Shown here one piece after another: positions 33,195 to 57,735 of a DNA stretch of 64,000 bases. This DNA is from Candidatus Cloacimonetes bacterium HGW-Cloacimonetes-3. Lineage in GTDB: Bacteria; Cloacimonadota; Cloacimonadia; Cloacimonadales; Cloacimonadaceae. The stretch covers positions 1 to 64,000 of the forward strand of contig PHBO01000005.1 in the NCBI GenBank assembly GCA_002840645.1, given 5' to 3'. The first letter of the stretch is position 1. Each line of letters starts with the position of its first letter. The notes beneath the pieces are model-generated. The model did not search any database, was not told the origin of the DNA, and saw only the letters and a list, made by a program, of their open reading frames with translations. The translations under genes were made by a program, and so were the position numbers.

Positions 33195-33548
33195 GGGGGT
33201 GAAATGGTTTCGACAGGGAACCAGGGTGTGAGTAATGCATGTCGGAGACGCTTTTCTGCTCCGTTAACAAGAAAGCAAAACAAAATTAATTGCAAATAAC
33301 AATTACTCCTTAGCAGCATAAGCTGCTTTCGTTCAACCTCTTCGTGCCGTCGGAAGGGGATTGGGCGTCGAAACAGTACGGCCGCTGCGGAAAGGACTGC
33401 CGATAATTTCCGCCTAAGACTATTGGCTGGGCTTAGGGGGTCTGATTGTCTTCCACCCCGATAGCTGAGACTTAAATGACAACTAAACATGTAGATTTGC
33501 TTGCAATCGGTTTTTTGGACGCGGGTTCGATCCCCGCCACCTCCACCA
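33195..33548 (+). ncRNA. ssrA: Transfer-messenger RNA (tmRNA)
   Basis: The 5' end GGGGGTGAAATGGTTTCGAC and the 3' end GACGCGGGTTCGATCCCCGCC...CACCTCCACCA are the conserved tmRNA ends; GGGGGTG pairs with CACCTCC as the acceptor stem. The gene is one piece (not permuted). The tag frame reads GCA AAT AAC AAT TAC TCC TTA GCA GCA TAA, giving ANNYSLAA after the tRNA-borne Ala. It ends in the usual L-A-A. tmRNA frees stalled ribosomes and marks the products for proteolysis. The CCA is encoded. Confidence 0.97.
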
Positions 33549-33549
33549 G

Positions 33550-34022
33550 CTTTGGTTAGCGGGTTAATGGTTAACAGGTTAAACCCGTTGCTTATCGTGG
33601 ATGTTTGTTTATGGGAGGTAGGTATGATGCATACTGATTTGGAAGTTTATAAGGCGAGTATGCTGTTGGTGAAACATGTTTATGAGCTTGCGAAGGATTT
33701 TCCCCATGACGAGCTTTGGGGGCTTACATCACAAATGAAGCGCGCGGCTACTTCAATCCCTACCAATATTGCCGAAGGCGCGGGTAGAAAATCCAAGAAA
33801 GAATTGCTCTACTTCTTGAACGTGTCTTTGGGCTCTTTATCAGAACTGCAAACCCAGCTCGATATTGCAGTTATGCTTGATTTTGTTAAGGACAAACAGA
33901 AACTGGAAGCAACCGTAAACATCTCTCAATCCGTAAAACGACAACTGCTTTCCCTGATAAAAGCCAATGACAAACCAGACTCGACGGTCTAACCAGTTAA
34001 CCTACTAACCATTAACCAAAGA
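33550..34022. mobile_element. Four-helix-bundle cassette framed by inverted repeats
   Basis: DNA at 33550-33588 (CTTTGGTTAGCGGG...) and the reverse complement of 33987-34022 (CTTTGGTTAATGG...) align as imperfect inverted repeats of about 37 nt made of GGTTAA words. They enclose the four-helix-bundle gene; the right arm overlaps its last codons. The cassette lies 2 nt behind the tmRNA CCA end, a common landing site for inserts. Confidence 0.5.
33624..33992 (+). CDS. Four-helix bundle protein (23S rRNA IVS/S23 family)
   Basis: 122 aa from ATG 33624 (GGGAGG 5 nt upstream). Pattern VYKASMLLVKHVYELAKDFP, then RAATSIPTNIAEGAGRKSKKELLYFLNVSLGSLSELQTQLDIA, is the family signature. Relatives are encoded in intervening sequences of 23S rRNA or as free genes; they form pentamers and have no proven biochemical role. 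Here the gene follows tmRNA and is framed by inverted repeats, which suggests it moves or is carried. Confidence 0.88.
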   Translation: MMHTDLEVYKASMLLVKHVYELAKDFPHDELWGLTSQMKRAATSIPTNIAEGAGRKSKKELLYFLNVSLGSLSELQTQLDIAVMLDFVKDKQKLEATVNISQSVKRQLLSLIKANDKPDSTV

Positions 34023-47096: not shown

Positions 47097-47333
47097 ACAT
47101 TGTGGAGAGTCACCCTTTTAAGTATACTGGCTGTAGCTAAGAAGCTATTGAAAGAGCTTAAGAGAATATCATAGTAAGTGATGCAATAGATTGGTTAGTA
47201 AAGGGCTTAATAACTACGACAAGTTTAGAGATTAAGCGGGTTTGACATGGCTGTTAAAAAAAATTGTTGACACAAAAGCGATTCTATTGCAAGTACAAAA
47301 AACTGAGATTATTGAACAAAATGAGGTTATGTG

Positions 47334-50300
47334 ATGAAACTGGAAGAGCTGAATTACTACTATAATAAATTCAAGTTTGGTGAGGATATATTCCATCAGT
47401 TAATGCAGAAGCGGGTGCGGGACATTCTGTTGGTATCCACCTTTTACGATGCATTTATCTTCGAGCAGGACGGCAGGCTTTCGGAACAGATATTCGGCGA
47501 ATACAGGCAACTGAACTTAACTACCACACCGCGCATTACCTCTGTACCTACAGGCGAAGAAGCGCTTGCAAAGATGAAAGACCAGAACTTTGACCTGGTG
47601 ATTACCATGATGCGCATAGGGGAAGTTGGTCCTTTTCAGCTTGCCAAGGAGATCAAGGAAGAAAATCCTGATTTGCCGGTGCTGTTGCTGCTGAATGTGG
47701 CTTCGGACTACATTATCTGGGAAAATCATCCCAACGAAAAGCAGTATATAGATGATGTCTTTTTGTGGAACGGGGATACGAAGCTGTTCCTTGCGATGGT
47801 GAAAAGCGTGGAAGACAAGATGAACGTGGAGTATGACACTGCGCATGGACTGGTGAGGGTTATCCTGTTAGTGGAAGATTCTGTGCACTATTACTCCCTG
47901 TTCTTGCCCTCGCTGTATGCTGTGGTGATGAAGCAGACGCAAAAGCTGATAGAAGAGGAAGTTAGCGATATAAATAAGCGCTTAAGGATGCGGATCCGGC
48001 CTAAGGTGCTGATGGTGCACGATTATGATGAAGCACTGGCTTTGTACGAGAAATACAGCGATTATCTGCTGTGCCTGATATCGGATGTGCGTTACAAGGT
48101 TGGCGGTGAGGTGGATGCCAAAGCAGGGATAAAGCTGATTAAGCATATCATGAAGAAGAACAAAGACTTACCTATGATATTGCAATCCTCTGAAAGCGAA
48201 AACGAAAAGACGGCGAATGATCTGGGCGTGTTCTATTTGAATAAGAATTCTAAGCATTTGTTTGCGGACTTGCGCAGTTATATGGTGTATAATCTGGGCT
48301 TTGGCAACTTCTGTTTTCGGGATGATGATGGAAAAATAATTGAGGAAGCTGCCAATATCGCAGAGTTCGAGAATAAGATATTGCAGATTCCGGAAGAAAC
48401 GTTGCTCTTTCATAGTAAGTTTAACCATTTCTCAAACTGGTTGATAGCGCATGGAGAGGTACAGATCGCCAAGAAAATACGCCCTATGAAGGTGGAGGAT
48501 TTTGGCAGTAGGGAAGAGCTGCGGGACTTTTTGTATCATGTGTTCCGTACCGTGCGCATAGACAAGAACCGGGGGAAGATTATAAACTTTGATGCGATTT
48601 CTCTAAGTGAGATGAATCAGATAATCAGGCTTACAGAGGGTTCTCTTGGTGGAAAAGGACGCGGGCTGGCTTTTCTGAATGCCCTGCTGTGTACCATGGA
48701 TTATGAGAAGAAGTTTGAGTCCATTTCCATTTCTCTGCCAAGTACAGCAATAATCGGTACTGCGGAGTTTGATCAGTTTGTGGAGCGGAACGAGATTTTA
48801 CAGCAAATAGCGGGAAAAAGCGATGAAGAAATAGACCGTGTATTCATTGAGGGCAAGCTTTCGGATCAGTTGGTGGGGCGGTTGGAAGTTTATCTGGATA
48901 TGGTTACGTATCCTATAGCAGTCCGCTCATCCAGTCTGTTGGAAGATTCTCAGGCACAACCGCTGGCGGGGGTGTATCGCACTTTTATGCTGCCGAATAA
49001 TCATCCCGATAAGATGTACCGCTTAAGGCAGTTGATGGATGCTATCAAGCTGGTTTTTGCTTCTGTTTATCTCTCTGATGCAAGGTCTTTCCTGGAAGCC
49101 TTGAATTTCAAAGCTGAAGAAGAAAAGATGGCGGTGATAATTCAGGAGATAGTTGGTAGTGTGAAGGGCGAACACTATTACTACCCACACTTCTCGGGCG
49201 TGGCGCAGTCTTATAACTTTTACCCCACAGCCCATATGCTGCACACGGATGGCATTGCCAATATCGCCTTGGGATTAGGAAAATCAGTGGTGGAAGGCAA
49301 GCTGAACTTCCGCTTTTGCCCACGTTATCCACAGACGGATATGCTGCCTCAACAAGAGATGATGCGCTCTTCACAAAAAGAATTCTACGCTCTGGATTTA
49401 GCGCTGAACGATTCGGATTTGACCAAAGGTGAAGAGATCACCCTTGCCAAGCTGAATATAAAAGACGCAGATAAACATGATAGCTTGAGGTACATTGCCT
49501 CAGTTTGGGATTATGAGAACTTTCGCCTTACAGATAACTTGGCGGAACGCGGGATGAAGGTGATAACCTTTTCCAATATCTTGAAATATAACTACTTTCC
49601 TCTGGCTAAGATTGTGGAAGAGCTGCTGGAAATTGGAGAAATTGCACTTGGAATACCCGTGGAGATAGAGTTTGCCGTGAATCTGGAGTATGACCAGCGC
49701 TATAAGTATAAACCCACCTTTTACATCCTTCAGATACGCCCTCTAAGCGTGAGTGCCGATGCATACCGGATCGATGCTGAACAATTGGACAAAAAAGAAC
49801 TGATTATGTACACCGAACACGGTATGGGAAACGGGATTATTAACGATCTGACGGATATAATATATCTTGATCCCAAGAGCTTTGATAAAACCAGAACTCA
49901 GGAAATGCAGGAAGAAGTGGAGCTTTATAACAAAAAAATGGCAGATGCGGGGAAACGCTATATCCTGATAGGTCCGGGTAGATGGGGTTCGCGGGATAGA
50001 TTCCTTGGTATTCCGGTGCGCTGGCCACAGATAAACCGTGCAAAGGTGATACTGGAAACGGGCTTGAGTGATTTTATTGTTGAGGCTTCGCAGGGAACAC
50101 ATTTCTTCCATAACTTGGTGGCGATGAATGTGGGGTATTTCACCATTCCCTATGTTTCGGAGACAGATTTCGTGGATATGGATTGGCTTTTGGCACAACC
50201 AATTAAGGAGAGGGGAGATTTCTTTGTACATCTGGAGTTCCCGCGTCCATTGGTGGTGAGGATGGATGGTAAAACCGGTTTGGCAGTGATACACAAATAG
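47334..50300 (+). CDS. Receiver-PEP/pyruvate-binding giant protein 1 (intact second receiver)
   Basis: 988 aa from ATG 47334 (GAGG 7 nt upstream; GTG 47331 is also possible). Order: a receiver-like domain (30-160) whose phospho-Asp position reads ITMMRI and so cannot be phosphorylated; a second receiver (175-320) with E181-D182, D251 (LISDVRY), S285 and K304, an intact set; a linker; then the PEP/pyruvate-binding N-domain of PPDK type: GGKGRG (K441), IAVRSSSLLED (R531), EEKMAVIIQEI, and EIEFA...YILQIRP (800-804). The last 180 residues carry GPGRWGSRDRFLGIP and EASQGTHFFH. The swivelling His domain and PEP barrel of PEP synthase are absent. Function unknown; probably a phosphorylation-controlled ATP-using protein. 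Confidence 0.8.
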   Translation: MKLEELNYYYNKFKFGEDIFHQLMQKRVRDILLVSTFYDAFIFEQDGRLSEQIFGEYRQLNLTTTPRITSVPTGEEALAKMKDQNFDLVITMMRIGEVGPFQLAKEIKEENPDLPVLLLLNVASDYIIWENHPNEKQYIDDVFLWNGDTKLFLAMVKSVEDKMNVEYDTAHGLVRVILLVEDSVHYYSLFLPSLYAVVMKQTQKLIEEEVSDINKRLRMRIRPKVLMVHDYDEALALYEKYSDYLLCLISDVRYKVGGEVDAKAGIKLIKHIMKKNKDLPMILQSSESENEKTANDLGVFYLNKNSKHLFADLRSYMVYNLGFGNFCFRDDDGKIIEEAANIAEFENKILQIPEETLLFHSKFNHFSNWLIAHGEVQIAKKIRPMKVEDFGSREELRDFLYHVFRTVRIDKNRGKIINFDAISLSEMNQIIRLTEGSLGGKGRGLAFLNALLCTMDYEKKFESISISLPSTAIIGTAEFDQFVERNEILQQIAGKSDEEIDRVFIEGKLSDQLVGRLEVYLDMVTYPIAVRSSSLLEDSQAQPLAGVYRTFMLPNNHPDKMYRLRQLMDAIKLVFASVYLSDARSFLEALNFKAEEEKMAVIIQEIVGSVKGEHYYYPHFSGVAQSYNFYPTAHMLHTDGIANIALGLGKSVVEGKLNFRFCPRYPQTDMLPQQEMMRSSQKEFYALDLALNDSDLTKGEEITLAKLNIKDADKHDSLRYIASVWDYENFRLTDNLAERGMKVITFSNILKYNYFPLAKIVEELLEIGEIALGIPVEIEFAVNLEYDQRYKYKPTFYILQIRPLSVSADAYRIDAEQLDKKELIMYTEHGMGNGIINDLTDIIYLDPKSFDKTRTQEMQEEVELYNKKMADAGKRYILIGPGRWGSRDRFLGIPVRWPQINRAKVILETGLSDFIVEASQGTHFFHNLVAMNVGYFTIPYVSETDFVDMDWLLAQPIKERGDFFVHLEFPRPLVVRMDGKTGLAVIHK

Positions 50301-50308
50301 GTTCAGAG

Positions 50309-53239
50309 GTGATACACACTAATTTTTGGGCGCAGGAAACAGCGCTGCTTGAATCCCTCATGCCGCGTAAGGTGGAGCGTATTCTGATGATTGCCTCTCT
50401 TTACGATTCTTTTGTATTCGAAGTGGATGGCTTTCTGGCAGAGCAGGTAACTGAGGATTTTCATCTGTTGAACCTCAGCACTCAGCCAAACATCTTTCAT
50501 GCTTCCTCTCTGGAAAGTGCATTGAAGCTGCTGGAGCAAGAGCAGATAGATATCATTATCATCCATTTGCCCTCTATGCGGCAGATTGTGTTGAAGCTGT
50601 TGAACCTAATTAAACAGAGCAATCCGGAGCTTCCGGTATTCTTCCTCTTAGGCGCACCACAGGATTTGATGTTCATAGAAAACCACACAGAGGAGTTGCA
50701 GGGTGTGCAGGATTTCTTTTACTGGAATGGAGATTCGAAGCTTTTTCTGGCGGTGATCAAGCTGTGGGAAGAATTGTTGAACATACAGCACGACATGTTA
50801 GCATACGATGTTCCCGTGATCCTCGTGGTGGAAACCTTTATTCCATACTACTCTCAATTCCTGCCCTTGCTTTATGAACAGATTATGCAGCTATCTATTG
50901 GCTTGATTCGAAGCGAGCATCAAAGCATGAATAAGAATCTATACCTCAATGCCAGACCCCGGATAGTTTTGCTCCACGATCACAATAGTGCAGTACAATT
51001 CTATGAGAATCATACAAATTCCATTGTGGGAATTGTAAGTAACATAAACTACCATTACTTGGGAGAGAGCCATTACAACGGTGGTTTGGAATTGCTTCAA
51101 TACATTCGTAAACATAATCCCGGCTTACCCTTTTTAATGCAATCGTTTAATCCCATGTATCGGGATGTTGTGTCCAGCAATGAAGGCGAGTTTCTTTATA
51201 AAGACCTACCGGGCTTAAGTAGTCAGATTAGACGCTGGCTACAAACGGAAATTGGCTTTGGCAAGTTCACTTTTCGTGAGCCGAATGACAGCAAAATAGG
51301 CGAAGCAAATTCGCTGATTGGGTTTCATAGGAATATCAAGAGTCTTTCTCCTACTTCAGTAAGCTATCATATCAAGAATCGGCACTTCCATGCCTGGTTG
51401 GCTATCCATGCTGAGGCTGCATTATGTCTCTATTTAAAAGATGTTGATCCATCTCAAGACCCAATTGAGATTCGTGATTCTTTTGAAGAAGCACTTGCTT
51501 CATTGATAGCTTATAGAAGGCGGGAAAAAATACAGGATTTCACAGATGAAGCGGATTTTGACCTTAGCCTTATTTACAAAATAGGGGATGACTCTATTGG
51601 TGGCAAGGGAAGAGGTTTGGCATTCCTGAATGTGGTTCTTAACCGCTATAGTTTTGTGGCAGAGAAGTATCCGCAAGTGAAGATATCTGTACCGGTGGCT
51701 GCGGTGCTGGCAACAGGGATATTTGATGAGTTTATCAGCTTTAACCCCCAGCTTAACAATATGGATGTGGTGGAAAGCCTAAGTGATGCAGAGATAGATA
51801 AACTTTTTCTGGCAGCCCAATTACCTCAGCGGAGTATATCACAGCTCAGCAGTTTATTGTCCAAGACATCAGCTCCGTTAGCCGTACGATCCTCTTCTAT
51901 CCTGGAAGATCATATTGCCAATCCCTTTGCAGGTGTGTTCAGAACCTTTTTGATCCCTAATAGCCATTCGGATGCACGCATAAGGCTGGGACAATTGATA
52001 ACTGCCGTGAAGCTGGTATATTCTTCCATGTTCCTGAAAAACGCAAGAGCATATCGAGAGTCTTTGAATATACCTGCAAGAGAAGAAAAGATGGCTGTAA
52101 TTATTCAGAAGGTTGCCGGTTCACAAAGAGGTGATGCTTTTTACCCCTTGCTATCAGGAGTAGCACAGTCCTATAATTACTATCCTGCGGTAAACATGAG
52201 CCACGAAGATGGTATCGTAACGCTCTCTACTGGTCTTGGTAAAACAGCAGTGGAAAGAGAGCGAACCTTTGCTTTCTGCCCGTCTTTCCCCAATTTGGAT
52301 ATGTTCCCCCCGGAGGATATTGTTAAAGGTGCGCAGAGGAGTTTCTACGGACTTGATGTAGCGCGTCGTGATTTTCAGCTGATTGATGGAGAAGATAGTA
52401 CTTTGTCCCGCATAAGGGTTAATCAGACGATGCTGGAAGAAGAACTGCTTGTGTTAAGCTCTGTTTGGGATTATGATAACCGTGAGTTCCTAAGTGGCAA
52501 ATTTACCAAAGGACCACGAGTTATTACTTACCGAAACATTCTTCATTACAATGAAGCTCCCTTAGCTGATTTATTGAAGGATTTTCTTAGCTTAGGACGG
52601 GAAGTATTGGGTTGTGAAGTAGAGATGGAGTTTGCCTTTGATATAGACTCCGAAACAGGTCAACAAAGCTTCCACCTGCTGCAAATAAGACCGATAACCG
52701 TGAGAAAACACCTCTATAGTGAGGATCTGAAGAATTGGTTGGATAATAAGGACGAGCTTTTACTGTACTCATCATATGCTTTGGGTAATACCCTGGAAGA
52801 GAATCTGGATACAATTGTATATCTTAAACCAGAACGATTTGATATTGTTAAGACTGAGGCTATGGCACAGGAACTGGATGAGATTAATCAAAGCTTGAAA
52901 CCAAACAAATACTTGCTAATCGGTCCCGGGCGGTGGGGTACGAGTGACCGGTTTTTGGGTATCCCAGTTGCATGGAGCCAAATAACCAATGTGGCTACCA
53001 TAGTAGAAGTCCTGCTTCCTAACATGTCCATCGAGGCAAGCCAGGGCAGCCACTTCTTTCACAATCTTTTCAGCATGAGCGTAGCCTATCTAACAGTGAA
53101 AGACGAAGTTGATTATGTAGCATGGGATTGGCTCGATTCTTTGCCCTCGCTTAGGGAAGGAATATTCTTCGAAGTGAAAAAAACTCCCAAGAATTTAAAG
53201 ATTTTGTTTGACGGAAAAAACGCTGCTATTATTAGGTGA
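50309..53239 (+). CDS. Receiver-PEP/pyruvate-binding giant protein 2 (degenerate receivers)
   Basis: 976 aa from GTG 50309, 8 nt after its paralog; the GTG start keeps the N-terminal alignment with the paralog. Same architecture. Both receivers look dead: the first reads IIHLPS at the acceptor site and the second reads GIVSNINY (N245 for Asp) with VVETF for VVEDS. The ATP-grasp-like motifs are kept: GGKGRG (K432), LAVRSSSILED, EEKMAVIIQKV, MEFAFDID...LLQIRPI; so is the tail (GPGRWGTSDRFLGIP, EASQGSHFFHN). A tandem duplication followed by loss of phosphorylation in one copy is the simplest reading. Perhaps it forms a heterocomplex with protein 1. Confidence 0.8.
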   Translation: MIHTNFWAQETALLESLMPRKVERILMIASLYDSFVFEVDGFLAEQVTEDFHLLNLSTQPNIFHASSLESALKLLEQEQIDIIIIHLPSMRQIVLKLLNLIKQSNPELPVFFLLGAPQDLMFIENHTEELQGVQDFFYWNGDSKLFLAVIKLWEELLNIQHDMLAYDVPVILVVETFIPYYSQFLPLLYEQIMQLSIGLIRSEHQSMNKNLYLNARPRIVLLHDHNSAVQFYENHTNSIVGIVSNINYHYLGESHYNGGLELLQYIRKHNPGLPFLMQSFNPMYRDVVSSNEGEFLYKDLPGLSSQIRRWLQTEIGFGKFTFREPNDSKIGEANSLIGFHRNIKSLSPTSVSYHIKNRHFHAWLAIHAEAALCLYLKDVDPSQDPIEIRDSFEEALASLIAYRRREKIQDFTDEADFDLSLIYKIGDDSIGGKGRGLAFLNVVLNRYSFVAEKYPQVKISVPVAAVLATGIFDEFISFNPQLNNMDVVESLSDAEIDKLFLAAQLPQRSISQLSSLLSKTSAPLAVRSSSILEDHIANPFAGVFRTFLIPNSHSDARIRLGQLITAVKLVYSSMFLKNARAYRESLNIPAREEKMAVIIQKVAGSQRGDAFYPLLSGVAQSYNYYPAVNMSHEDGIVTLSTGLGKTAVERERTFAFCPSFPNLDMFPPEDIVKGAQRSFYGLDVARRDFQLIDGEDSTLSRIRVNQTMLEEELLVLSSVWDYDNREFLSGKFTKGPRVITYRNILHYNEAPLADLLKDFLSLGREVLGCEVEMEFAFDIDSETGQQSFHLLQIRPITVRKHLYSEDLKNWLDNKDELLLYSSYALGNTLEENLDTIVYLKPERFDIVKTEAMAQELDEINQSLKPNKYLLIGPGRWGTSDRFLGIPVAWSQITNVATIVEVLLPNMSIEASQGSHFFHNLFSMSVAYLTVKDEVDYVAWDWLDSLPSLREGIFFEVKKTPKNLKILFDGKNAAIIR

Positions 53240-53306: not shown

Positions 53307-54656
<1,350 letters not shown>

Positions 54657-54669
54657 TAACCTGGTATCA

Positions 54670-54706
54670 GCCGGGAGCTTATGTATATGGGCTTCCGGCT
54701 TTTTTG
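54670..54706 (+). terminator. Intrinsic terminator after gdhA
   Basis: AGCCGGGAGC and GCTTCCGGCT pair around a short loop, followed by T6. It ends about 9 nt before the kinase TTG start. Confidence 0.85.
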
Positions 54707-54714
54707 TAACCGAA

Positions 54715-55830
54715 TTGACTAACCACGTTAGTTTAGAAGATAGTGTTTTTGCTCTAAAAGAGCGAATTAAGGAGCTTAGCTGCCTGTATAGAATTGCTGA
54801 GCTTGCCAGTCTTCCGGAACTTGAACCTGCTGCATTGCTCCAACAAGCCCTGAATTTAGTTCCTCCAGCCATGCAATATCCGGAACATGCTTGTGCCCAC
54901 CTGATGGTGAATGGAGTAAGCTATTACAGCGAGAGATTTCAAGCCAGCACAAACTGTCTCACAGCAGGGATAAGCACTCAGATATCTTCATTAGGCTGCC
55001 TCGAAGTATTTTATCCCGATAAGCAGAATCTTAAGTTTCTCCCAGAAGAGGAAAAACTGATAGACACTCTGGCTCAGCATATATCCCTCATTATGGAGCG
55101 CAGGAGCATACAGGAAAACAATGCCAAGCTACAGGAACAGCTGCGTCATGCCGACAGGCTGGCTACTATCGGGCAGTTATCCGCCGGGATTGCTCACGAG
55201 ATTAATGAACCATTATCGGCAATTCTGGGCTTTGCTCAATTAGTTTTAGCTGAGAATCCACTTACTGATAATGCAACAGCAGACCTGCAAAAGATAGTTA
55301 ATGCCTCACTTCATGCACGGGAAGTAGTGCGCAAACTTATGCTATTCTCCCGGCAGGTTCCCCCCAAGATGGTGCCAGTGGACATAAACAAGCTGATAGA
55401 GGATGGCTTCTATTTTCTGGAGAACCGCTGTGCCAAGCAAGGGGTGCAGATTATCCGCGATTTGGATCCCTCTGTGCCAAGTGTTATCGCAGACCCCAGC
55501 CAGATGCATCAGGTGCTGGTGAATTTAAGCGTAAATTCCATGCAGGCAATGCCGAATGGAGGGCTTATACAGATTTCCACCCGCCGCATAGATAATGACG
55601 TTCAGATTTGCATCAGAGACACAGGTGAGGGCATGAATGCAGAGGTAATGCAGCGGATATTTATCCCCTTTTTTACTACCAAGGATATTGACCAGGGAAC
55701 AGGATTAGGTTTAAGCGTTGTTCATGGTATAATCAGTGCCCACAACGCTTCCATAAAGGTTGAAAGCGAACCGGGAAAGGGATCGGTATTTAAAATTCTA
55801 ATGAAGGTAAACAGTGAAGAAAGCTCCTGA
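54715..55830 (+). CDS. Sensor histidine kinase, NtrB-like, cytosolic with GAF-like domain
   Basis: 371 aa, start TTG 54715 (weak site; no better start downstream that keeps the N-domain). Residues 10-130 look like a GAF sensor (LKERIKELSCLYRIAEL..., FLPEEEKLIDTLAQHISLIMERR). HisKA with H161 (SAGIAHEINEPLSAI). ATPase: N-box VNLSVNSMQAMP, G1 IRDTGEGM, G2 GTGLGLSVV. No membrane helix, so it reads a cytoplasmic signal. Partner regulator overlaps by 17 nt. Confidence 0.9.
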   Translation: MTNHVSLEDSVFALKERIKELSCLYRIAELASLPELEPAALLQQALNLVPPAMQYPEHACAHLMVNGVSYYSERFQASTNCLTAGISTQISSLGCLEVFYPDKQNLKFLPEEEKLIDTLAQHISLIMERRSIQENNAKLQEQLRHADRLATIGQLSAGIAHEINEPLSAILGFAQLVLAENPLTDNATADLQKIVNASLHAREVVRKLMLFSRQVPPKMVPVDINKLIEDGFYFLENRCAKQGVQIIRDLDPSVPSVIADPSQMHQVLVNLSVNSMQAMPNGGLIQISTRRIDNDVQICIRDTGEGMNAEVMQRIFIPFFTTKDIDQGTGLGLSVVHGIISAHNASIKVESEPGKGSVFKILMKVNSEESS

Positions 55831-57142
55831 ACAGATTCTAATCGTTGATGATAATACAGACACCCTCCAAATGCTTAGCAGGAAGATAGTATCCAAGGGC
55901 TGGAGTTCGCTTCTTGCCACAGACGTAAGCCAGGCATTGCAACTGCTGGACGCAGGTGGAATAGATTTAGTGTTAACCGATTATAAGATGCCGAAGATTA
56001 CCGGGCTGGAGCTAATACGCCATCTAAATAGCCATTATCCAAACATCCCGGTAATAATGATTACCGGATATCCCAGTATTGAAGGCGCAGTAGAAGCCGT
56101 GAAAGTAGGCGCAGAAGAATATTTAAGCAAACCTTTCACAGATGAAGAGCTATTCAAAGCGATTGATGCTGCGATAGTTAAGGTTAGACAACGAAAGACC
56201 AGAACACAGGAAATCCCCACCAATCCTTATGGACTTATCGGCAATTCTGAACAGATGCAGGAACTTTACCGCAAAATCCATAAGTCCACAACCAATAATG
56301 CCACTGTTCTTATTCATGGAGAAAGCGGTACCGGCAAAGAACTGGTGGCACGTGCCATACATTATCATTCGCATCACAGCAAAGCTCCATTTGTCCCTGT
56401 AAATTGCGGTGCCATTCCGGAAACCCTGCTTGAAGCTGAGCTATTTGGATATCTGAAGGGTTCTTTTACCGGTGCTAACGAAACCAGAGCCGGGTATTTT
56501 TTAACAGCAGATGGCGGAAGTATTTTTCTGGACGAGATCAGCGAGACATCTCTATCTATGCAGGTGAAGCTTCTGCGCGTGTTACAGGATAGACAAGTTT
56601 ACATGATAGGCTCAAAAACTCCCCGCAAGGTTAATGTCCGCATTATTGCTGCTACCAACAAAGACCTTCCTCTTTTAGTGAAACAAGGCGGTTTCCGGGA
56701 CGACTTGTTTTTCAGGCTGAATGTGCTTCCCATCTACATTCCACCCCTACGTGAGCACCCTGAAGATATCTCCATGCTTATCAATCATTTTCTAAAGAAG
56801 TACTCGAGCGAGAATTCGCTTCCCATCCCAAGTATCAGCGATGATACTATAAACTCCATGCTGACATACACCTGGCCCGGTAACGTACGTGAGCTTGAGA
56901 ACCTCATATATCGCATGGTTATATTGTGTGAAGGGCAGCAGATAGGTATATCCGATTTACCGGAGCATATGAAGTTTTCCATTAACCAGACACCTAATTT
57001 ACTAAGATCTTTAGCAGAAGTGGAGCAGGAATATATCAGCGCTGTCTTAGCATCGGTAAACGACAACAAATCTCTCGCAGCAAACATCTTGGGGATTGAC
57101 AGGAAGACATTGTATAATAAACTGAAAGACTTTGAGAACTAA
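55814..57142 (+). CDS. Sigma-54-dependent response regulator, NtrC family
   Basis: 442 aa from GTG 55814. Receiver with D56 (LTDYKMP) and K in LSKPF; AAA+ domain with Walker A GESGTGKE (169-176), the sigma-54 loop GSFTGA (216-221, Ser for the usual Ala), Walker B GGSIFLDE; Fis-type HTH at the end (NKSLAANILGIDRKTLYNKL). Activates sigma-54 promoters when phosphorylated by the linked kinase. Targets unknown; no clear -24/-12 site was seen upstream of gdhA or the giant genes. Confidence 0.94.
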   Translation: MKKAPEQILIVDDNTDTLQMLSRKIVSKGWSSLLATDVSQALQLLDAGGIDLVLTDYKMPKITGLELIRHLNSHYPNIPVIMITGYPSIEGAVEAVKVGAEEYLSKPFTDEELFKAIDAAIVKVRQRKTRTQEIPTNPYGLIGNSEQMQELYRKIHKSTTNNATVLIHGESGTGKELVARAIHYHSHHSKAPFVPVNCGAIPETLLEAELFGYLKGSFTGANETRAGYFLTADGGSIFLDEISETSLSMQVKLLRVLQDRQVYMIGSKTPRKVNVRIIAATNKDLPLLVKQGGFRDDLFFRLNVLPIYIPPLREHPEDISMLINHFLKKYSSENSLPIPSISDDTINSMLTYTWPGNVRELENLIYRMVILCEGQQIGISDLPEHMKFSINQTPNLLRSLAEVEQEYISAVLASVNDNKSLAANILGIDRKTLYNKLKDFEN

Positions 57143-57162: not shown

Positions 57163-57735
57163 ATGATTTATGACCTTGTAGAGCGCAACAGAAGCTATAG
57201 ACGCTTTCACGAATCGCAACGGATAACGCATCAAGAACTTACTGAGTTAGTTGGTCTGGCAAGGATTACTCCCAGTGCGGCAAATCTCCAGAACGTTCGC
57301 TATTATCTGATAAATGAAAAAAGTGATTGTGATGCCATTTTCCCCCATCTGAAATGGGCGAGTTACCTGCGATATTGGGAAGGTCCGGTTTCCGGAGAGC
57401 GTCCTTCTGCCTACATTATTATCCTCGTGCCGGCTCACACCACAAAGTTCCACCATATCGATACCGGCATTGCTGCTCAGACCATTATGTTGGGAGCAGT
57501 GGACAGAGGGTTGGGGGGATGCATGTTGGCATCCGTGGATAAACCTGCTGTGCAGCATACGTTTAACCTTCCAATTGACATGGATGTTGCCTTGGTGCTT
57601 GCCATAGGGTATCCCGCAGAAACAGTGATAATAGATAGCATAGAAGATCCTGATGATGTAGAGTACTGGCGGGACGATGAAGGCTGCCACCATGTTCCCA
57701 AACGCCGCTTGGAAGAGCTTATCCTAAATTACTGA
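57163..57735 (+). CDS. Nitroreductase-family flavoprotein
   Basis: 190 aa. FMN-binding pattern: RNRSYRRFHESQ at the start, ITPSAANLQNVRYYL, and DTGIAAQTIMLGAVDRGLGGCMLASVD. Uses NAD(P)H and FMN; native substrate unknown. The C-terminal tail (DDVEYWRDDEGCHHVPKR) carries a Cys-His-His cluster often found in clostridial-type members. AGGAG precedes the ATG; the gene follows the response regulator by 20 nt. Confidence 0.9.
   Translation: MIYDLVERNRSYRRFHESQRITHQELTELVGLARITPSAANLQNVRYYLINEKSDCDAIFPHLKWASYLRYWEGPVSGERPSAYIIILVPAHTTKFHHIDTGIAAQTIMLGAVDRGLGGCMLASVDKPAVQHTFNLPIDMDVALVLAIGYPAETVIIDSIEDPDDVEYWRDDEGCHHVPKRRLEELILNY

Follow-up and report, generated by a model that had tools for sequence, protein, structure and literature searches.

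The two adjacent genes at 47334..50300 and 50309..53239 (both forward strand) of the window, the whole 64,000-nt stretch of DNA analysed here from Candidatus Cloacimonetes bacterium HGW-Cloacimonetes-3, encoded two paralogous proteins composed of receivers, a PPDK_N ATP-grasp domain, and a conserved tail. On balance, we read proteins 1 and 2 as ATP-dependent regulators dedicated to the adjacent glutamate dehydrogenase (GDH) and gated by receiver phosphorylation. The conserved GDH neighbour, missed by an earlier note made from the letters of this DNA, likely points to the target of the pair.

Domain organization of the tandem proteins

Protein 1 (P0001; 988 aa, ATG at 47334, stop codon ending at 50300, with an alternative GTG start at 47331 adding one residue) and protein 2 (P0002; 976 aa, 50309-53239) had intact frames separated by an 8-nt gap and aligned end to end with 37% identity across 970 columns, in agreement with the adjacent paralogs of this size and spacing described in the earlier note; they were the sole two family members in the genome of the window. 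Protein 1 displayed the structure receiver-like domain 1–receiver 2–helical linker–PPDK_N ATP-grasp–conserved tail, and protein 2 had the same layout. The domain order was borne out by Pfam, which matched PPDK_N in both proteins and the receiver clearly in protein 1 (E 4e-8) and weakly in protein 2, and the motifs named by the earlier note were present and conserved across phyla. A fold search with the predicted model of protein 1 (pLDDT 84) matched the tandem receivers to PleD and the ATP-grasp to PPDK; structure prediction, which had been proposed as a check, thus upheld both folds in this protein.

The receiver-like domain 1 of protein 1 (47415..47828, forward strand; residues about 28-165; Pfam match at residues 64-119) had a PleD-like tandem receiver fold and carried Met92 in place of the phospho-Asp; position 92 was M or T in 70 protein 1-type orthologs and mostly Met or Thr in all relatives examined, none of which had a phospho-Asp in receiver 1. 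Receiver 2 of protein 1 (47853..48296, forward strand; residues about 174-321) contained the acidic pair, phospho-Asp, Ser/Thr, and Lys of response regulators, namely E181, D182, the predicted phospho-acceptor D251 (codon 48084..48086, forward strand, conserved in orthologs), S285, and K304: E181, D182, D251, and K304 were unchanged in 70/70 protein 1-type orthologs with S or T at position 285, and the EDD(S/T)K set was found in 107 of 111 genuine sequences of a wider alignment (16 rows being antisense frames had been set aside before counting), the remainder having ENDSK. Receiver 2 of protein 2 was degenerate, with Thr at the D182 position and Asn245 at the D251 position, and all 23 protein 2-type paralogs had T/S/N and N/S/T, respectively, at these two positions; one acidic-pair residue and the phospho-Asp were gone. 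Only in Cloacimonadota was the gene seen as a tandem pair in which the second copy had a dead receiver. Of the two receivers claimed for each protein, therefore, receiver 2 of protein 1 was intact, but receiver 1 lacked the Asp and receiver 2 of protein 2 was dead.

The PPDK_N domain characteristic of PEP synthase and PPDK was found in protein 1 at 48642..49781 (forward strand; residues 437-816; E 5.3e-37), where it contained GGKGRG with K441, R531SSSLLED, E779, and Q800-I-R802, and in protein 2 at 51590..52714 (forward strand; residues 428-802; E 9.6e-32) with the catalytic-type residues kept. K441, R531, E537-D538, E779, Q800, and R802 were common to all architectures of the family (R802 was Lys in a few), and K441, R531, E779, Q800, and R802 were retained also in the receiver-dead paralog. 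As judged from these residues, the two paralogs are not equivalent because receiver 2 of protein 2 is dead, and the ATP-grasp residues are kept in both. Going by motif, K441 and R531 are the likely counterparts of Lys22 and Arg117 of rifampin phosphotransferase, both of which are needed for resistance, with Lys22 needed for all activity (PMC4844700). The NCBIfam equivalogs (PEP synthase, rifampin phosphotransferase, PigC) matched only the ATP-grasp part and far under their cut-offs (16-44 bits for rifampin phosphotransferase and PigC-RedH versus cut-offs of 999-1350).

The tail of protein 1 (49800..50297, forward strand; residues 823-988) contained GPGRWG and EASQGTHFFH, with H923 encoded at 50100..50102 (forward strand), and its counterpart in protein 2 carried H915 (codon 53051..53053, forward strand) within EASQGSHFFH. 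The residues G882-R-W-G, D888, G892, E908, S919, G921, and H923-F were common to all architectures, and the invariant H923 stood at the N-terminus of a helix in the predicted tail model. Modelled alone (AF2), the tail formed an alpha/beta domain (pLDDT 91.8, pTM 0.90); a PDB fold search with this model gave no significant match (best E 0.0066, probability 0.41), a PDB sequence search with the tail profile gave no credible match, and hhalign of the tail against 19 real swivels, taken from this genome and its relatives, gave a probability of 1.5% and no alignment. Pfam matched neither the PEP-utilizers swivel nor the PEP/pyruvate barrel in either protein. Both parts had been reported absent by the earlier note, for which a TSH swivel or PEP barrel elsewhere in the chains would have told against its reading; none was found. 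The tail of only ~165 aa was thus neither a swivel nor the C-terminal barrel of PEP synthase and PPDK, and the proteins had neither the swivel plus substrate-binding domain of rifampin phosphotransferase and PigC-RedH nor a swivel with an autophosphorylating His as in VadK-type dikinase. On the modelled structure, the tail is a separate domain, because it had no significant PDB fold match and no alignment with swivels. By eye, EASQGTHFFHNLVAMNVGYFTI looked like TSHAAIVAR...GIPAVV of a cryptic swivel, with H923 starting a helix; this candidate was rejected, since swivel-profile and fold searches gave nothing.

Family architectures and linkage to glutamate dehydrogenase

Whole-genome searches were run in four phylum samples and gave matches in 92/118 genomes of Cloacimonadota, 81/100 of Neomarinimicrobiota, 69/395 of Bacteroidota, and 61/237 of Myxococcota, about 23 of these 61 having short receiver or ATP-grasp matches only; viral contigs encoded no relatives, no phage relatives were found, and a comparison with defence families gave nothing beyond one chance-level match. 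Two further forms were found besides the receiver type: (i) form S (~580 aa), which was receiver-less, and (ii) form N (~1050 aa), in which PPDK_N and the same tail were preceded by a sensor-like N-terminus and followed by a nucleotidyltransferase at the C-terminus; a GS...SDID motif was present in 19 of 25 N proteins. Forms S and N were organized with a 427-aa GDH in the operon GDH427–S–N, often plus a phosphoesterase-like gene; S–N pairs occurred in the Cloacimonadota, Neomarinimicrobiota, Bacteroidota, and Myxococcota samples, and shorter N forms without the nucleotidyltransferase stood directly beside GDH427. The N protein at L083:9902-13051 and similar ones in L081-L094 and L256-L268 carried GSxKNxxxGPxSDID and adjoined the 427-aa GDH. 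A ~285-aa phosphoesterase-like protein (SDLHG...GND; L083:13048-13905) without a Pfam match above cut-off adjoined 12 of 25 N proteins, and it is possibly a reversing enzyme. The earlier note knew of no characterised system with this layout, and no close characterised homolog turned up in the PDB or the literature searched; an incomplete literature search found no published account of the family or of its GDH link, a provisional result.

The neighbour of the tandem pair was an NADP-specific GDH (445 aa; 53319..54656, forward strand; PRK09414, E 1.4e-225, above cut-off), the proposed target, which started 79 nt downstream of protein 2 and was followed by a strong intrinsic terminator (54669..54706, forward strand; 14-pair stem and T run). 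Given this spacing and terminator, the genes of protein 1, protein 2, and GDH probably make up one transcription unit ending at 54669..54706; sigma54 promoter consensus matches occurred at chance frequency only.

A single scan of species genomes gave 78 loci; all locus counts given here are approximate, because a few loci of the two collections may stem from one genome. When neighbour genes were clustered, the GDH family came first with 51 loci, and the next family (kinase) had 19. GDH lay beside the gene in 59 of 75 informative loci (those having GDH or sufficient sequence on both flanks), across six phylum-level lineages and in four arrangements: (i) downstream on the same strand in Cloacimonadota and Bdellovibrionales; (ii) downstream and convergent in Neomarinimicrobiota; (iii) upstream on the same strand in Ignavibacteria/Melioribacter (Bacteroidota) and part of Myxococcota; and (iv) upstream and divergent in other Myxococcota and Spirochaetales. 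The corresponding counts were 20/28 in the Bacteroidota-phylum sample and 14/27 in the Neomarinimicrobiota-phylum sample, and several family lineages had no GDH nearby; from distance and genome size, chance proximity of a given gene was estimated at well under 1% of loci. The survey of genomes that the earlier note had proposed for the pair and its neighbours thus gave GDH as the commonest neighbour across phyla, but the tandem pair itself in Cloacimonadota only.

The two GDH classes were matched to the architectures: the receiver type paired with the 445-aa GDH in 12 of 13 cases and the S and N types with the 427-aa GDH in 38 of 40, the sequences in both counts being related and not independent draws. 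Several Bacteroidota-phylum genomes harbored two GDH/receiver-ATP-grasp pairs close together, and the partners split into the same two groups, with identities of 81-92% within and 67-72% between groups for GDH and of 67-86% within (except one outlier) and 56-63% between groups for the ATP-grasp proteins. In the Bacteroidota-phylum loci L251-L255, two such pairs were accompanied by a third GDH, which belonged to the other class, and most of these clusters had a kinase-like gene and a 210-aa response regulator between the pairs. Within the family of the window, the protein 2 type occurred together with its GDH in 23 of 24 genomes (the one without GDH being a fragmented assembly), and this GDH occurred in 0 of 25 genomes without protein 2 (Fisher 4e-13, for linked genes in related genomes). 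A second GDH, 69% identical and without a PPDK_N gene alongside, was located at 116851-118185 of contig C3 (G000 C3:116851-118185; L191) with neighbours resembling phosphofructokinase and DnaX genes; this second type was the only copy kept in most family genomes without proteins 1 and 2.

The linked GDHs were scattered over the GDH tree, and the link was therefore kept or remade repeatedly. No residue separated 63 linked from 20 unlinked GDHs, and thus no modification site stands out. Taken over gene order in all these lineages, the GDH linkage of the family is well supported. GDH is present in nearly all Cloacimonadota digester genomes according to the available text of PMC13082233, in which no mention of PPDK or response regulators was found.

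Adjacent kinase and proposed mechanism

The order after GDH was a cytoplasmic histidine kinase (54715..55830, forward strand; HisKA plus HATPase_c) and then a sigma54-dependent NtrC-type response regulator (55814..57142, forward strand); in many relatives, too, the two genes co-occurred. The first 150 residues of the kinase showed homology to the start of the N proteins in phmmer (E mostly 1e-9 to 1e-15, down to 6.6e-15); one sensor domain thus appeared in two settings, fused to the ATP-grasp or in the kinase beside the receiver-ATP-grasp proteins, and this sharing suggests that the adjacent kinase feeds receiver 2. The kinase pair was non-adjacent in most lineages outside Cloacimonadota. The sensor domain of the kinase (54715-55164), common to PPDK_N-nucleotidyltransferase proteins, had no Pfam match and is an unnamed domain. 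A nitroreductase-family gene (57163-57735) lay directly after the sigma54 regulator and in the same place in several relatives.

We infer GDH as the target, the adjacent kinase as cognate, the direction of control, and the chemistry, in a scheme that would run as follows: the cytoplasmic histidine kinase would sense a cytosolic signal via its N-terminal domain and phosphorylate D251 in receiver 2 of protein 1; the phosphorylated receiver would alter the ATP-grasp/tail module; and this module, at the expense of ATP, would gate the GDH hexamer or modify it. Protein 2, apparently ATP-competent but deaf to phosphorylation, is best read as a constitutive partner subunit or as an opposing activity. 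Since the swivel is absent, a single chain cannot carry out the two-step reaction known from PPDK, and the phosphoryl acceptor might be GDH itself or the tail His; phosphoryl transfer to GDH would be the likeliest chemistry, put forward tentatively, and ATP-driven gating without covalent change is a possible alternative within the same explanation. The receiver-controlled ATP-using kinase or phosphotransferase conceived by the earlier note would be a reasonable reading, and the intact ATP-grasp site and a protein 1 receiver able to exert control were borne out; the note missed the GDH neighbour and the dead receiver of protein 2.

Gene linkage is no proof that GDH is the physical target, and cassette inheritance explains part of the co-occurrence. 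That linkage reflects mere shared transcription or cassette transfer, with the proteins acting on another cell target, would agree with the probable single transcription unit of the Cloacimonadota genes and with the missing linkage in some lineages; we regard it as very unlikely, since genes in convergent or divergent order cannot share a transcript and the tie to GDH is found again with both GDH classes and in several architectures. A metabolic function beside GDH is also rather unlikely: in this reading, a small molecule such as 2-oxoglutarate, glutamate, or one of their derivatives would be phosphorylated or ligated by the ATP-grasp and tail together, and only the rate would be set by the receiver. 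Small molecules are the usual substrates of PPDK_N enzymes, the intact ATP-grasp with the tail (G882-R-W-G, D888, E908, S919, and H923) conserved in all architectures resembles a second active site, and a shared pathway would fit the GDH linkage as well; however, GDH was the sole constant partner with no other pathway enzymes, the fusions to receivers, sensor domain, and nucleotidyltransferase are regulatory-type parts, and the duplicated matched pairs suit protein-protein specificity better.

As a non-catalytic energy sensor, the ATP-grasp would simply bind ATP/ADP, and the protein would attach to GDH in stoichiometric amounts as an allosteric subunit gated by the receiver; this role would suit the absence of a swivel acceptor and the energy-charge dependence known for GDH activity in other organisms. 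It is unlikely, because K441, R531, E779, Q800, and R802 are retained also by the paralog with the dead receiver, and a sensor could do without them. In rifampin phosphotransferase, moreover, their likely counterparts Lys22 and Arg117 matter for function (PMC4844700). PPDK_N has homologs in PEP synthase and rifampin phosphotransferase, and two-component kinases of the PPDK superfamily exist as far as the available text of PMC12167813 goes; a PEP synthase or PPDK with swivel and PEP domains supplied in trans is nevertheless scarcely tenable here, because the swivels of the window genome lay only within 907-aa PPDK-sized and 588-aa PtsI-sized frames, none being free, and the conserved neighbours included no swivel gene.

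Comparison with known systems

Regulation of the adjacent GDH, our preferred reading, has a precedent in VadK (Rv1127c), a PPDK-derived histidine dikinase of mycobacteria. This truncated PPDK undergoes autophosphorylation and interacts with enzymes of the methylcitrate cycle (PMC12636432), which shows that such a protein can be a regulatory kinase with metabolic enzymes as partners. VadK and the pair are both PPDK-derived and without the PEP domain, and VadK serves to regulate metabolic-cycle enzymes, not to make PEP (PMC12636432); VadK keeps a swivel with phospho-His422, while the pair has an unrelated tail instead, receivers fused in front, and GDH as presumed partner. The GDH linkage suggests a VadK-like action of the pair on central-metabolism enzymes. 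PEP synthase and PPDK share the ATP-grasp PPDK_N and the ATP-site residues with the pair, but the pair lacks both swivel and barrel. Rifampin phosphotransferase and PigC/RedH were the best-scoring solved or curated relatives of its ATP-grasp; they carry a swivel and a substrate domain, and homology with the pair ends at the ATP-grasp. PleD, the top fold match, has the tandem receiver-receiver arrangement of protein 1 but GGDEF as output in place of the ATP-grasp, and the first receiver of the pair lacks the Asp.

GlnD and GlnE are nucleotidyltransferases controlling PII and glutamine synthetase. The likeness lies in a dedicated modifying enzyme for a neighbouring ammonium-assimilation step, relatives of the pair carrying a nucleotidyltransferase beside GDH; the difference lies in the ATP-grasp core of the pair, which has no sequence relation to GlnD/GlnE, and in a GDH target that is only proposed here. 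It is possible, if doubtful, that the family represents an undescribed, widespread class of swivel-less PPDK-type ATP-grasp proteins that covalently modify a partner GDH under the control of a phospho-receiver or of a fused sensor plus nucleotidyltransferase. GDH, a meeting point of carbon and nitrogen metabolism, would then resemble glutamine synthetase in having a modifying enzyme of its own as a switch. To our knowledge, a dedicated switch on GDH is known in few bacteria; the family paired with GDH in Cloacimonadota, Neomarinimicrobiota, Bacteroidota (Ignavibacteria and Melioribacter), Myxococcota, Bdellovibrionales, and Spirochaetales would supply one, and it would extend the PPDK ATP-grasp to signalling without a swivel.

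Elsewhere in the window, a second ARAGORN tmRNA call (33452-33971) overlapped the true tmRNA and looked spurious; the only RNA family in the window was this tmRNA at 33195-33548, confirmed by Rfam.
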